Part shown: piece after piece, positions 4,641 to 57,587 of the stretch
Layout: every line of letters begins with the position of its first letter
Numbering within the stretch: position 1 is the stretch's first letter
Assembly: GCF_023707985.1 (NCBI RefSeq)
Contig: NZ_BRCF01000001.1
Span: 121,967-185,966, forward strand
Source: Sporosarcina sp. NCCP-2716
GTDB taxonomy: Bacteria > Bacillota > Bacilli > Bacillales_A > Planococcaceae
Direction of reading: 5' to 3'
Length of the DNA: 64,000 nucleotides
Position numbers and translations under genes: made by a program
The notes under the pieces: generated by a model
What the model saw: the letters and a program-made list of their open reading frames with translations, nothing else
What the model was told of the DNA's origin: nothing
Databases searched by the model: none

Positions 4641-7043
4641 ATGAGAAGGATGCACGCATGGAAGGTTTTTGGACGGCTGCTGACGGCTGTATTTCTAATG
4701 GTTCTGCTGATACCCGCACGTCAGGCATTGGCAGTGCCGGATTTATCTATTTCAGTTTCAGCAGGACTGGACAGCAAAACGAAAGACGGGGAAGGCGCAC
4801 CGGTCGTCTTCACCATTGAAAACAAAGGCAGTTCCTTTACCGGCGACCTGGTCTTCGACACGACGGCGGGCCAGTCGTCAGGTGCAGGCCGCGTGGTGCC
4901 GGTCACTGTCGGGCAAGGGGAGAAACAGACCGTCTCGATGATCGTCGAGTCCCTGGAAGACCCGAACATGTACGGCGGCCAAGTGAAGAAAAACGTCTTC
5001 CTGTATGAAAACGGCTGGAAGAGCGGGAAGGAGATCGCCCACTCCGGCACCCAGCTCGTGACGTCCATGTCCTTTCCGCGTGAGACCCTTTTCGTCGCGG
5101 GTCTTGCGGACAATATCGACCGGCTGTCGTCTTTGAAGGACATTCAGCTGACAGGCTTCCAGGGCATGGAATTGCTGAACCTGTCAAAAGGGGATGCAGC
5201 TCCTCTGCCAAGTGAAGCTGCAGGCTGGGGAGCGGTGGATATCGTCGCTGCCGACCGGTTTGCAGTAGCCGATCTGACAGCCGCCCAGCAGGACGCGATG
5301 CTTGAATGGGTGAAGAGCGGCGGGATCCTGCTGCTCGGCGCTTCCGATAACGCGGCTGCTGAAGCAGGTGTTTTCCGGGAGTATTTGCCGTTGGAATTAT
5401 CATCGGCCAAGGAACTGCCGCCCAAGCTGTTCAATGACAAGTTCAAGGATCCGGTTCCCGGGTACGGTTCCGCCCTTGCTGCAGACGCAAAAGCCGTCGC
5501 CGAAACGGACGGTGTGATCCTTGCGGCTGCACGTCCTGTCAACGACGGGATTGTCGTCCAGACTTCCTTCACGATCGGAAGCGACGCATTCCGCTCGGCG
5601 ATCGGAGCGAAACGCTTCTGGTCGGATCTGCTGAAAACGAGCGGGATGCTGACGGCGCAGCGTCCGGTGCAGCCGTATTATTCCAGTCCGGCGGATGACC
5701 TGTCGTGGTCGGTCGCACAGACGAATGAGCTGTTCCCGTCCTTCAAAGTGTCCGCGCCGCTGCTGGCGGGTTTCATCCTGATCTATCTCTTCATGGCCAT
5801 CCCGGTCCTCTATGTATTTTTACGGAAAAAGGATAAGCGGGAGCATGCGTGGTGGATCATCCCGGCCGCTGCGGTCGCAGTATCCATCGCCATCTTCGCT
5901 TACGGGGCCAAGGACCGTCTTGGGAAATCGCAGCTCCAGCATTCCGCTATCTATGAAGTGGGGCCGGACAGCCGGTTATCCGGTTATTACGTCGAATCCC
6001 TGCTGACGGACAAAAGCGGTGAGTTCTCCTTTGGGGTACAGAAACCGAGCACCGTCCTTGTGAGTTCATCCATGACGAATGTCTTCGGCGGCAACGGCCG
6101 TGCGCATGACAGGGCGGTCGTCGAAAAGGGCACCTCCGAAGAATTGCTGACGTACCGGAATCTAGGATTTTGGAACGTCGCCTCCTTCTACGGCCGGACC
6201 GAGATGGAAAGCGCAGGCAGCTTCGATACGGACCTGACATTCAAAGAAGGCCTGCTGACCGGCACAGTGACGAACACATTCCCGTTCGCCTTGGATGACG
6301 TCCTCCTGCTGACCGGCAGCAAGAAGATCTCCCTCGGTGCCGTTGCGGCAGGAGAGACGATCTCCGTCAAGAAGGAGATCAAAGCAAGCGTCCTCGGCGG
6401 GAGATCCTCCTTCCAGATGGGCTCCATGGGCCAGATGGCGGCCAGTCAGGAGGATCTGATGGAGAGCAGGAAGGAAGGGCTCCTGGAGTTTTCCGCAACG
6501 CACTTGAACAGCTCACTTAAGCCGGTTCTCGCAGGGGTCACCGGTACCCAGATCATGGAGCTTGCACTGAACGGCAGGAAAGCTTCCTCCTCACCGCTGT
6601 CCATCGTCCTGCAGCCGGTCGATATCGAAACCGTGCTGTCGGGATCGGTGAAGATCGACAGTGAAGCGATGCAGATGGAACTGCTGTCCGTCACCGGCCA
6701 GCCCGCCGATCTGCTGGATGAAACGACTAAGGAATATTTCTTCTACGAAGACGAATACACACAGACATGGCAGCTTCCTGAAAACTTTGTGAAGGAAGTG
6801 ACGGGATGGAGCAGTCTCCAGCTGCTCGGAACGGACTCAGCCCGCTATGAGGTCAGTATCCTGAATATAGTATCAGGCGAGTATGAACCGCTTGAAGGGA
6901 AAAGCACGCTGACTGCTGAACCAGCGGGTGATTATGTGTCAAAAGAAGGAAAAGTAACGGTCAAACTGGCGGTGACCGACAACCAGGCCGGAGACCCTGT
7001 ACATCCGCCGGAACTCCGTCTGACAGGGGAGGCTGCAAAATGA
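4641..7043 (+). CDS. Large exported membrane protein, first gene of MoxR/vWA operon
   Basis: About 800 residues, function unknown. It begins with a signal peptide (basic MRRMHAWK, hydrophobic core, cleavage probably after ARQALA). The N-terminal half looks beta-rich and extracellular, then a Rossmann-like part (VDIVAADRF, EWVKSGGILLLGAS) resembles the glutamine-amidotransferase-like domains of such operons. Near the middle, two hydrophobic segments (LLAGFILIYLFMAIPVLYVF and WWIIPAAAVAVSIAIFA) flank a charged KKDKREH loop. The C-terminal half is again beta-rich. An alternative start is the ATG at 4650. Its stop overlaps the next start by 4 bp (ATGA), so translation is coupled to the ABC ATPase. 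Confidence 0.7.
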   Translation: MRRMHAWKVFGRLLTAVFLMVLLIPARQALAVPDLSISVSAGLDSKTKDGEGAPVVFTIENKGSSFTGDLVFDTTAGQSSGAGRVVPVTVGQGEKQTVSMIVESLEDPNMYGGQVKKNVFLYENGWKSGKEIAHSGTQLVTSMSFPRETLFVAGLADNIDRLSSLKDIQLTGFQGMELLNLSKGDAAPLPSEAAGWGAVDIVAADRFAVADLTAAQQDAMLEWVKSGGILLLGASDNAAAEAGVFREYLPLELSSAKELPPKLFNDKFKDPVPGYGSALAADAKAVAETDGVILAAARPVNDGIVVQTSFTIGSDAFRSAIGAKRFWSDLLKTSGMLTAQRPVQPYYSSPADDLSWSVAQTNELFPSFKVSAPLLAGFILIYLFMAIPVLYVFLRKKDKREHAWWIIPAAAVAVSIAIFAYGAKDRLGKSQLQHSAIYEVGPDSRLSGYYVESLLTDKSGEFSFGVQKPSTVLVSSSMTNVFGGNGRAHDRAVVEKGTSEELLTYRNLGFWNVASFYGRTEMESAGSFDTDLTFKEGLLTGTVTNTFPFALDDVLLLTGSKKISLGAVAAGETISVKKEIKASVLGGRSSFQMGSMGQMAASQEDLMESRKEGLLEFSATHLNSSLKPVLAGVTGTQIMELALNGRKASSSPLSIVLQPVDIETVLSGSVKIDSEAMQMELLSVTGQPADLLDETTKEYFFYEDEYTQTWQLPENFVKEVTGWSSLQLLGTDSARYEVSILNIVSGEYEPLEGKSTLTAEPAGDYVSKEGKVTVKLAVTDNQAGDPVHPPELRLTGEAAK

Positions 7044-55298: not shown

Positions 55299-55312
55299 CA
55301 GGTCAAGGAGCC
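55282..55312 (-). terminator. Hairpin overlapping ylbC and kinase 3' ends
   Basis: AGCTCCCTGAC pairs with GTCAAGGAGC around a 2-base centre. On the minus strand it is followed by TTTTT (55286-55282), so it can terminate the aspartokinase gene. It spans the last codons of both convergent genes. Confidence 0.7.
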
Positions 55313-56040
55313 GGCATGACCCACGTTCCCGGTTCGGCTCCGGCAATCCCGCGTATATATAGAGGGGTTGCCGTTTTTTTTGCGTGATCCGCAGCACGCT
55401 GCTGGATGACCGGCCGGCCGGTTTCAAGGTAGGGGAACAGTTCGTCGATCGTCAGTGTGTCCAGCTTGCGGGCATCTTCGTATTCGTGCGGATCGGCGGA
55501 CATGACGCCCGGGACGTCCTTGAAGAATTCGACGTGGCTCGCTCTGAGGGCATTTCCGAGGACGACAGCTGTCAAGTCACTGCCTCCGCGGCCGAGCGTC
55601 ATGTAGTCGCCTTCCTCACTGATCCCCTGGAATCCGGGCACGATGACGCATCGGAACTGCCGGAATGCCTGCTCATATGAGCTTGTCTCCACTTGTTCGA
55701 TGGAAGCACCGCTGAATGCGCCGGCAGTCAGGATACCGGACTGGCGGCTGTGCATGACTTTGTTCGGTACACCGGCTTCCGCCAGCTCCGCACTGAGGAC
55801 GGCTGCCGCGATCAGCTCCCCGCAGGACGCTGCCAGATCCCAGGCAGCGGTGGCAGGACGGAACGAAGGCGTGATGGACAATATCCGGTCTGTGGAATAC
55901 GGACTCTCCTGACGGCCGATTGCAGAAACGACAGCGGCGACGGTGCCGTGCTCCGCGAGCCCTTCCCTGATCCGCTCAATACATAATCGGCGCAGCCTGC
56001 GGTCTTTCATGGCAGCGCCGCCGAATTTCTGAATGATCAT
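55303..56040 (-). CDS. Aspartokinase-type kinase lacking ACT domains
   Basis: A 245-residue amino-acid kinase with aspartokinase signatures: QKFGGAAMKD at the N-terminus, SCGELIAA, GRGGSDLTAVVLG, FFKDVPGVMSADPHEY and the closing PVIQQRAADHAKKTATPLYIRG. Aspartokinases normally carry two C-terminal ACT domains for lysine or threonine feedback; this protein ends at the catalytic domain. It would phosphorylate aspartate at the head of the DAP/lysine pathway without that control. ATG 56040 follows GGGAG. Divergent from the murE-type gene across 113 bp. Confidence 0.75.
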   Translation of the reverse strand: MIIQKFGGAAMKDRRLRRLCIERIREGLAEHGTVAAVVSAIGRQESPYSTDRILSITPSFRPATAAWDLAASCGELIAAAVLSAELAEAGVPNKVMHSRQSGILTAGAFSGASIEQVETSSYEQAFRQFRCVIVPGFQGISEEGDYMTLGRGGSDLTAVVLGNALRASHVEFFKDVPGVMSADPHEYEDARKLDTLTIDELFPYLETGRPVIQQRAADHAKKTATPLYIRGIAGAEPGTWVMPAP

Positions 56041-56062
56041 CTCGTCTCCCAACTTTCTTTCG

Positions 56063-56091
56063 TGACATTTGCTCAGGACGTTTCATACCTT
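56063..56091 (+). promoter_or_regulatory. Candidate mother-cell (sigma-E/K) promoter of murE-type gene
   Basis: TGACATT (56063-56069), 14-bp spacer, CATACCTT (56084-56091). This matches the sporulation sigma-E consensus (KMATATT, N14, CATACAMT) at 11 of 15 positions, and CATACCTTA also fits the sigma-K -10 (CATANNNTA). TTCATACCTTAC is repeated imperfectly at 56100-56110, which could instead be an operator. No convincing sigma-A promoter was found. Confidence 0.4.
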
Positions 56092-56153
56092 ACAGTAGGT
56101 TCATCCTTACTATATTCTGCAGATCGGAAAACGTTCGGGAAGGAGTCATGCAT

Positions 56154-57587
56154 ATGTATCTGATTGAATTGCTCAGGAACTGGCCTTGCACGGTCAACGG
56201 GAACTGGCGGGATGTGGTCATCAGGAAGGTGACGGAACACCCCGCACGCGCGGAGGCCGGCAGTCTGTTCGTCGCCCGGAAAGGCGCAAGCTACGACGGC
56301 CATCATGCGATCAACGAAGCCATCACGAATGGAGCGGACGCTGTGGTGATCGACCGCCCTGTCTCTTCCGCCATGATTTCTGCATGGTCTGCTGCTGGGA
56401 CTGCCGTGATCACCGTCCCTGACAGCAGCCGGTTTTTGTCATTCTGCGCAGCTGAACTGGCAGGCAATCCGTCACACGATCTGAAAGTGATCGCAGTGAC
56501 GGGCACGAACGGCAAAACGACAGTGACGCATTTCATCGGCCAGCTGCTCGGCGGGATGGGAGTGCCGGCTGCTGTCATCGGAACGACGGGCTGCTATATC
56601 GGCGGTGAGCGTCTGGACATCGACATCCCGCCGCTCACCACGCTGACAGCTGAATATCTGCATCCGCTGCTGAGTGAGTGCCGTGCACGGGGGGTGACGC
56701 ACGCAGCGCTCGAAGCGTCCTCGATCGGCCTCGAGAAAGGCCGCCTGACAGACTGTGGGATCGATATCGGCATCCTTCTGAATATCGGGGCGGATCACTT
56801 TGAGGATCATGGAGGAAGGTCCGGGTATATCGCTGCGAAGAAACTGCTGTGCTCGCTGTCGGATCAGATGATCGTCAACGAAGAGGACGCGGTGTGCATG
56901 GAGATGACGGCATGCTGTGAAGTTCCTGTGCACCGTTTCAGCCGGGACCGCTTCCTCGACCAGTCGATCGACGGGGACACGGCGGCGAGGCTGCCTGCCG
57001 GGCTGCACAACCGGCTTAACGCGATGGCCGCAGCTTCAGCTGTCAGGCTGCTCGGGTTCCCTGCAGAAGCCATCAGCAGGTCGCTCGGCTCCCTTACGCT
57101 GCCGCCGGGCCGGCTCCAGCTTGCGGAACAGTACAGCAGGAAAGTGTATATCGATTATGCCCACTCACCGGATGCGCTGGAAGCCGTCCTGAAGGCGGTG
57201 ACTGGACTGAATCCGAGGAAGCTTGTCTGTGTGTTCGGCTGCGGCGGGAACCGGGACCGGGAGAAACGGCCGCTGATGGGAAAGATTGCCGAACAGTATT
57301 GCGACCATGTCATCGTGACGGCAGACAATCCGAGAGACGAGGATCCGGCTGTCATCGCGCAACATATATTGGCAGGGGTGGAAAAGCCGCACCGGTTCAC
57401 CGTCGAACTGGACCGGAGAAAGGCGATCCGCCAAGCCGTCAGTATGAGCGAGCCCGATGATATCGTCATCATCGCCGGCAAAGGCCATGAAGCGGTCCAG
57501 ATCGTCAATCAGGACCGTTTTTCACTCTCCGATTATTCCGAAGCGGTCGCAGCCCTCGACGCCATCCGGTCACATACCCGTACGTGA
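56154..57587 (+). CDS. MurE-type ligase with meso-DAP motif
   Basis: A 477-residue Mur ligase of the MurE (UDP-MurNAc-tripeptide synthetase) type. ATP motif VTGTNGKTT, the lysine of YIAAKKLL (carbamylated in MurE) and the substrate motif DNPRDEDP at about 391-398. DNPR is the form used by meso-diaminopimelate ligases, whereas L-lysine enzymes have variants such as DNPA. It lies far from any mra/dcw genes, so it is probably a second copy. ATG 56154 has AAGGAG 8 bases upstream; the ATG at 56148 is too close. Confidence 0.82.
   Translation: MYLIELLRNWPCTVNGNWRDVVIRKVTEHPARAEAGSLFVARKGASYDGHHAINEAITNGADAVVIDRPVSSAMISAWSAAGTAVITVPDSSRFLSFCAAELAGNPSHDLKVIAVTGTNGKTTVTHFIGQLLGGMGVPAAVIGTTGCYIGGERLDIDIPPLTTLTAEYLHPLLSECRARGVTHAALEASSIGLEKGRLTDCGIDIGILLNIGADHFEDHGGRSGYIAAKKLLCSLSDQMIVNEEDAVCMEMTACCEVPVHRFSRDRFLDQSIDGDTAARLPAGLHNRLNAMAAASAVRLLGFPAEAISRSLGSLTLPPGRLQLAEQYSRKVYIDYAHSPDALEAVLKAVTGLNPRKLVCVFGCGGNRDREKRPLMGKIAEQYCDHVIVTADNPRDEDPAVIAQHILAGVEKPHRFTVELDRRKAIRQAVSMSEPDDIVIIAGKGHEAVQIVNQDRFSLSDYSEAVAALDAIRSHTRT

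Follow-up and report, generated by a model that had tools for sequence, protein, structure and literature searches.

The window analysed here is a 64,000-nt stretch of DNA from Sporosarcina sp. NCCP-2716, a member of the Planococcaceae, and covers positions 121967-185966 of contig C1. It carries two divergent genes, one for a ligase of the MurE family, which is the second MurE of this genome and is called MurE2 in this study, and one for a short aspartokinase-domain protein (AK). Gene structure, motifs, the pairing of the two genes, promoter conservation, co-occurrence with the sporulation gene spoIVA and joint decay were computed directly, and genera, genomes and loci are referred to by handles beginning with g, G and L, respectively. 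The features of the locus are as follows.

55303-56040, minus strand: AK, an aspartokinase-domain protein without ACT domains, 245 aa from ATG, the divergent partner of MurE2
56065-56092, plus strand: ACATTTGCTCAGGACGTTTCATACCTTA, a sigma-K-like (mother-cell) promoter element, with GTG before it at 56062-56064
56111-56117, minus strand: GAATATA, tentatively a -35-like element towards the aspartokinase gene
56140-56145, plus strand: AAGGAG, the ribosome-binding site of murE2
56154-57587, plus strand: MurE2, a UDP-MurNAc-tripeptide synthetase of the meso-diaminopimelic acid (DAP) type, as judged from models, domains, the DNPR motif, GKGHE and the P-loop TGTNGKT

The longest reading of the murE2 frame begins at the ATG at 56148 and ends at 57587 (plus strand, 479 aa), and it encodes a complete MurE. 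Translation probably starts at the ATG at 56154, because AAGGAG lies 8 nt upstream of this codon, whereas its distance to 56148 is just 2 nt. Domain search found all three Mur ligase domains, and the DAP-contact motif reads TADNPRDED, with GKGHE also present. MurE2 scored 385.3 bits with the murE model TIGR01085 (cut-off 257.3) and 375.5 bits with the DAP-ligase model NF001126 (cut-off 373), while it stayed under the cut-offs of the remaining DAP-ligase models of the same table (e.g., 367.9 against 476 for NF001124). With the L-Lys-ligase model NF010628 it reached 256.2 bits, under the cut-off of 536. When MurE2 was compared with solved structures, the DAP structures were closest (8f5d, 246.3 bits; 7b6o, 216.5 bits; the E. 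coli DAP ligase 1e8c, 215 bits), and the S. aureus L-Lys ligase 4c12 was a much poorer match (157.5 bits). The best named relative is the protein of Sporosarcina koreensis S-K12, with 72% identity. MurE2 is thus like the meso-DAP ligases of E. coli (1e8c) and M. tuberculosis (2wtz) in its three domains, DNPR, GKGHE and P-loop. Unlike them, it lies outside the dcw (division and cell wall) cluster, is the second MurE of its genome, is preceded by a putative sporulation-type promoter, and is present where spoIVA is present. These results bore out the sequence-only reading, made before this analysis, that a MurE homologue with the meso-DAP motif DNPR is divergent from an aspartokinase; that the kinase consists of the catalytic domain alone is a point new here.

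The motif was also read in 89 distinct MurE2 stretches of the family, one of them a truncated duplicate of the window's sequence. The motif and promoter counts do not include named loci from beyond the family (L073-L104). The script read DNPR in 79, DNAR in five, DNSR in two and DNCR in one, and the two stretches outside its reading are DNPR on direct inspection, so that the Asn and Arg are kept in all 89.

Six Mur_ligase_M proteins were found in the genome of the window (3.05 Mb, 92% complete). From translations and neighbours these are MurC, MurD, MurF, a FolC-like protein, MurE2 and a second MurE at C1:108910 (MurE1). The dcw cluster, with genes named from translations, holds mraZ, mraW, ftsL, two genes for penicillin-binding proteins, mraY and murD, and no murE is present in it. 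MurE1 instead adjoins prfC, as does the murE gene of S. aureus. A Lys-type murE inside dcw was hence ruled out for this genome. The sequence-only reading had put the ligase outside any cell-wall cluster, as was found, and had pointed to the motif of the murE in dcw as informative; this check came out in favour of that reading, with the difference that the second MurE stands beside prfC and dcw has none. The best structural match of MurE1 is the S. aureus L-Lys ligase 4c12, at 439.6 bits, compared with 286.3 bits for the E. coli DAP ligase 1e8c. Its motif is DDPR, whereas the S. aureus enzyme has DNPA, and TTDDPR was found in all 70 distinct MurE1 stretches of the family that were examined.

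MurE1 was found in 131 of the 151 family genomes, the exceptions being genera g2 and g4. The walls of Sporosarcina are of the L-Lys-Gly-D-Glu type and those of Planococcus of the L-Lys-D-Glu type, and Tetzosporium hominis VT-49 has L-Orn (L-ornithine)-D-Glu (PMC5786688). A Lys-Asp wall is given for Lysinibacillus in PMC4363355. The MurE of T. maritima, which has the same DDPR motif as MurE1, uses Lys in vivo and also accepts DAP in vitro, according to PMC9434261, and therefore the assignment of MurE1 to Lys rests on its kinship to 4c12 and on wall chemistry. Six sequences read from g2 (two) and g4 (four) have, in the stead of MurE1, a different MurE whose motifs are DDLN-like and GKG[HSICN]E (L143, L145, L154, L155, L156 and L167) and which is plausibly the L-Orn-adding enzyme of L-Orn walls.

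The same 151 genomes were searched with MurE2, SpoIVA, AK and MurE1 as queries. SpoIVA was found in 117 of them, four of which belong to g2. All 113 spoIVA-positive genomes outside g2 have MurE2; 97 of these were among the MurE2 matches listed, away from the position of MurE1, and the remaining 16, all of g4, were established separately. Among the matches listed, none from the 34 spoIVA-negative genomes (genera g6, g7, g8, g9, g12 and g16) is a MurE2. With the MurE2 query, the MurE1 proteins of these 34 gave E-values of 1e-52 to 1e-67, which beats the best listed match in 30 genomes, and in the other four (G031, G045, G070 and G080) the best place listed was MurE1 itself. Hence a MurE2 scoring above MurE1 is ruled out in the 34, though this does not extend to a copy that has diverged as far as the MurE2 of G020 described below. 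On a quick MurE1 gene tree (50 rows) the spore label required five changes, four of them forced by starred branches, so the label changed several times; a sign test over the four or five independent pairs of this tree cannot reach significance. Genus g4 keeps MurE2 beside AK in 16 of 16 genomes, though it is without MurE1. The presence of MurE2 follows sporulation genes, and the co-occurrence with sporulation genes that the sequence-only reading had named as a check is, for spoIVA and in this sample, complete outside one genus, in which the pair decays with spoIVA.

That genus, g2, comprises four genomes. SpoIVA is an open frame in G020, and is broken by stops or fragmented in G001, G038 and G054. 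In the window, the genes next to murE2 and AK encode one protein with a CAP domain and one of the Com_YlbF family; their position identifies them as ylbC and ylbF, and a ylbJ-like gene, so named from its position, follows. The ylbC-ylbF locus of G020 holds a MurE2 frame of 436 aa with DNPR and an AK frame of 223 aa. This copy may be in the course of being lost, because the N-terminal KFGG part of AK is gone and MurE2 forms a very long branch. C-terminal remnants of MurE2 were found in G001 (112 residues), G054 (119 residues) and G038 (75 and 48 residues, with a stop), and remnants of AK of about 115 residues in G054 and G038, while in G001 AK is down to a weak 25-residue match. The same neighbours flank all these remnants. 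In g2, murE2 and AK decay jointly with spoIVA.

Full-length murE2 and AK frames were also observed in L064 (Bhargavaea cecembensis, MurE2 at 5001-6458) and L066 (Edaphobacillus lindanitolerans, 5001-6425), and SpoIVA is present in the genomes that agree with them in murE2 length and score (G095 and G077). Bhargavaea is described as non-spore-forming, and the two genes suggest a hidden ability to sporulate. Another locus, L058, is titled Arthrobacter beigongshangensis REN13; since its murE2-AK locus is of the Sporosarcina type, with 49% and 62% identity to that of the window, the name of the record is probably wrong.

The intergenic region between ligase and kinase reads GTGAC-N17-CATACCTTA, with AC at 56065-56066. 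The consensus of sigma-K, a mother-cell factor, is AC followed at a distance by CATANNNTA, and the element before MurE2 resembles such promoters. The pattern AC-N17-CATANNNTA has one match on both strands of the window, at 56065-56092 (plus strand), where 0.37 is expected. Because 32 of 100 shuffles had at least one match, the match in the window alone proves nothing, and conservation in relatives is what counts. In PMC517825, sigma-K promoters are given a five-letter -35, a ten-letter -10 and a gap of 14-16; the window element has these lengths and gap provided that its -10 is counted as beginning one letter ahead of CATA.

For the comparison with relatives, identical intergenic regions were collapsed to 81 distinct ones, 63 of them linked to AK and 18 upstream of an AK-less MurE2, and four g4 loci (L158, L160, L165 and L168) with an aligned start that falls within the gene were cut back to 125-130 nt. 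A relaxed form (GTG[AT]C or GTCAC, N13-20, CATANNNT, on the MurE2 strand) was found in 63/63 AK-linked regions and 11/18 AK-less upstreams. The same scan found it in 0/49 of the 180-nt upstreams of MurE1 and, after base shuffling, in a mean of 0.18 (maximum 2) of the 81. By itself, CATANNNT occurs in 81/81 MurE2 regions and 6/49 MurE1 upstreams, with 14.3 (maximum 24) of 81 in shuffles. The strict form AC-N16/17-CATANNNTA occurs in 41/81 and 1/49, respectively. The relaxed pattern was widened from a narrower one (50/81 against 2/49) after misses had been seen and is therefore fitted to the data, and since the regions are related by descent, the counts are not independent trials. The element is nevertheless kept across six genera while the surrounding sequence varies, and the sigma-E/K-like element that the sequence-only reading had placed before the ligase is thus present and conserved. 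Towards AK, G[AC]ATA was found within the first 70 nt of the AK-strand intergenic region in 63/63 AK-linked regions, a count that has no chance control beside it. As a calibration for sigma-K, the upstream regions of dpaA (160 nt before and 60 nt after the start) were scanned, and the loose pattern was found in 0/19, a calibration that proved uninformative; dpaA was located by script in 19 of 30 loci, and the sequence before it resembles coding DNA (L312 has a 101-aa frame that extends into dpaA).

In the AK of the window, domain search found AA_kinase alone and no ACT domain. The best-scoring model was the DapG-like NF006068, which AK matched over positions 3-245 of 405 with 220.6 bits (cut-off 474); TIGR00656 was matched only over positions 2-248, with 173.2 bits against a cut-off of 402.25. 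In B. subtilis, dapG sits in the dpa operon. AK is closest to a DapG (aspartokinase I) model, but unlike B. subtilis DapG it has no ACT half, scores far under the cut-off and lies outside the dpa stretch. In the translations of six genomes, no aspartokinase gene was found in the dpaA-dpaB-asd-dapA stretch. An example is L309:2259-5748, where dapG is not between asd and dapA. Where a DpaA frame was located it is short, at 256-300 aa, and the TIGR02853 cut-off was passed in 0/31 genomes. A simple replacement of full-length DapG by AK was considered and did not come out clean, with 0/151 genomes passing the DapG cut-off and DapG-like full-length kinases occurring both with and without AK.

The search for a short AK gave a match in 57 of the 151 genomes (g1, 17; g3, 8; g4, 16; g5, 3; g11, 9; g17, 4), and it adjoins MurE2 in every one of them. 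The genera with MurE2 and without AK form one clade of the MurE2 tree (14 rows, support 99), so the absence of AK is consistent with a single loss. In this tree the MurE2 grouping has a support of 89 and MurE1 of 100, the outgroup rows L073 and L095 are wrong frames and not MurE, and L250, one of the MurE2 rows, has a very long branch. The 34 spoIVA-negative genomes yielded no orthologue-level short AK at E ≤ 1e-30. A 288-aa frame in G028 looks like a shortened full-length kinase, because its identity is 35% and the DapG-like model is matched to position 297. Compared with 20 full-length kinases of one type, K5, S39, T50, D51, G74-E75 and R151-G-G-S-D155 are invariant in all 70 distinct AKs, while aspartate 175 is N in nine. 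These residues suggest that AK is under selection and has a nearly complete aspartokinase site, although its activity is not certain.

A switch to DAP in the spore cortex is known biochemistry. A DAP-adding activity induced during sporulation was reportedly described in Bacillus (Lysinibacillus) sphaericus by Tipper, Linnett and others in the 1970s; it supplies DAP precursors for the cortex of a Lys-wall bacterium, which is the activity expected of MurE2. That system was described as an enzyme activity. Taken together with the results above, MurE2 is very probably a second MurE dedicated to sporulation, the mother-cell enzyme that adds DAP for the spore cortex of bacteria whose walls contain L-Lys or L-Orn. 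In late sporulation, the mother cell would turn on murE2 through the sigma-K-like (or a sigma-E) promoter, and in many genera AK as well. MurE2 would add meso-DAP to UDP-MurNAc-L-Ala-D-Glu, competing with or replacing MurE1 at this dipeptide precursor and directing DAP into cortex precursors, while MurE1 would still supply L-Lys for the vegetative wall, which in two genera would contain L-Orn instead. Only one MurF was found, and it would need to act on both precursors. ACT domains are the route by which lysine or DAP normally inhibit the pathway. Since AK has none, DAP, and dihydrodipicolinate for dipicolinic acid, could be produced whatever the lysine pool, and AK would be a supply partner in 57 of the 113 genomes with spoIVA and MurE2, raising the flux to DAP and dipicolinate without feedback. 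Beyond gene content, motifs, promoter conservation and co-loss, we infer this mechanism (i.e., the substrate specificity, mother-cell expression and cortex destination of MurE2, and the activity of AK and its lack of feedback inhibition) from the protein families and from the biochemistry of B. sphaericus. In a literature search that had most subscription journals outside its reach, we found no paper assigning a gene to the DAP-adding activity, and none on the murE2 gene, its promoter, the partner kinase or their phyletic pattern. In the accessible portion of a sporulation-gene survey, the main text does not include murE (PMC3533761).

It is very improbable that MurE2 instead has the housekeeping role, or that it acts in vegetative cells as a back-up producing some DAP wall. 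Such a role would fit a protein that scores above the curated cut-off of a DAP MurE model in a genome whose dcw cluster has no murE. MurE1, however, is present in all family genomes outside g2 and g4 and is the only MurE found in the 34 without spoIVA, and MurE2 decays with spoIVA in g2. Between the same genomes MurE2 is also less conserved than MurE1, with identities between the window's own proteins and those of G116 of 60% and 84%, and those of G055 of 49% and 72%, respectively. On this distribution, conservation and decay, the housekeeping role was rejected. A sporulation-specific MurE2 that serves another layer, such as the germ cell wall, or that has a broad Lys/DAP specificity instead of a strict DAP role in the cortex, is unlikely, though a better candidate than the former. 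The motif is not sufficient for specificity, and its Pro has drifted in some genera (DNAR, DNSR or DNCR). Against this, the Asn and Arg, which contact DAP according to work on S. aureus and E. coli (PMC3829189), are kept in all 89 stretches, and the promoter is of a mother-cell-like type.

Several points weigh against the sporulation-dedicated reading of MurE2 and its partner. The DNPR motif supports DAP specificity but is not proof of it, because an Ala-to-Arg change in S. aureus MurE gained no DAP activity (PMC3829189). By analogy with the T. maritima enzyme with DDPR (PMC9434261), MurE1 may be less Lys-specific than assumed. The spoIVA gene is one marker only, and in G099 just a contig-end piece of it is present; a MurE2 that had diverged to the extent of the G020 copy, itself missed by the search, would escape notice in the 34 spoIVA-negative genomes, whose ylbC-ylbF loci are unread. 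The strict promoter form occurs in just 37 of the 63 AK-linked regions and four of the 18 others, and seven of these 18 are without even the relaxed form.

The remaining points concern AK, which was not found in 56 of the 113 MurE2 genomes (g10, g13, g14, g15, g18 and g19). The sequence-only reading had regarded the pair as a dedicated module; the tracking of spoIVA by MurE2 and the decay of the pair in g2 agree with this, whereas as a general arrangement it did not hold. The pairing could be incidental, with AK serving vegetative lysine and threonine synthesis, and a single full-length aspartokinase found in the genome of the window (92% complete) would fit such a role as well. We regard it as unlikely, given that AK lies beside MurE2 in 57 of 57 genomes, has no orthologue-level counterpart in the 34 spoIVA-negative genomes at the threshold used and decays together with MurE2 in g2. 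Somewhat less likely still is that AK no longer makes aspartyl phosphate and has another substrate or a regulatory role. In KFGGTS the S is replaced by A in 70/70 AKs and the T by I, V or A in at least 69/70, giving KFGG[IVA]A, and at position 174 all 70 have K in place of T, all of which would suit a changed function. The invariant residues listed above argue for a kept aspartokinase-like site. On balance, we narrowly favour the pair as a self-contained mother-cell module that would insulate cortex DAP from the vegetative lysine economy and has been kept across Lys-wall and Orn-wall spore formers. It would combine a MurE that selects DAP with an aspartokinase which the loss of its ACT domains has released from feedback and which lies outside the dpa operon.

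One further MurE-like protein of about 500-525 aa was observed in the loci read, in which VDHPG replaces DNPR and the GKG motif is absent (L251:1366-2904, L253:1483-3057, L255:1323-2891, L256:1439-2950 and L257:1322-2854). It adjoins a fumarase-like gene, judged from its translation, in L251, L253 and L257.

The murE2 gene is offered here as a candidate for the enzyme activity that was reportedly measured in B. sphaericus some fifty years ago. If the proposed role is true, the cortex would be locked to DAP, whereas the diamino acid of the vegetative wall could be exchanged, as would have happened at least once for L-Lys and once for L-Orn. If the cortex must hold DAP despite a Lys or Orn vegetative wall, then spore assembly or germination, through cortex synthases or lytic enzymes, would read that residue. 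The reason for the choice between lysine and DAP in the walls of different species is listed as unknown in a review (PMC4015370), and through MurE2 this question becomes testable. The presence and decay of murE2 would, moreover, be a marker of spore-forming ability in the family.

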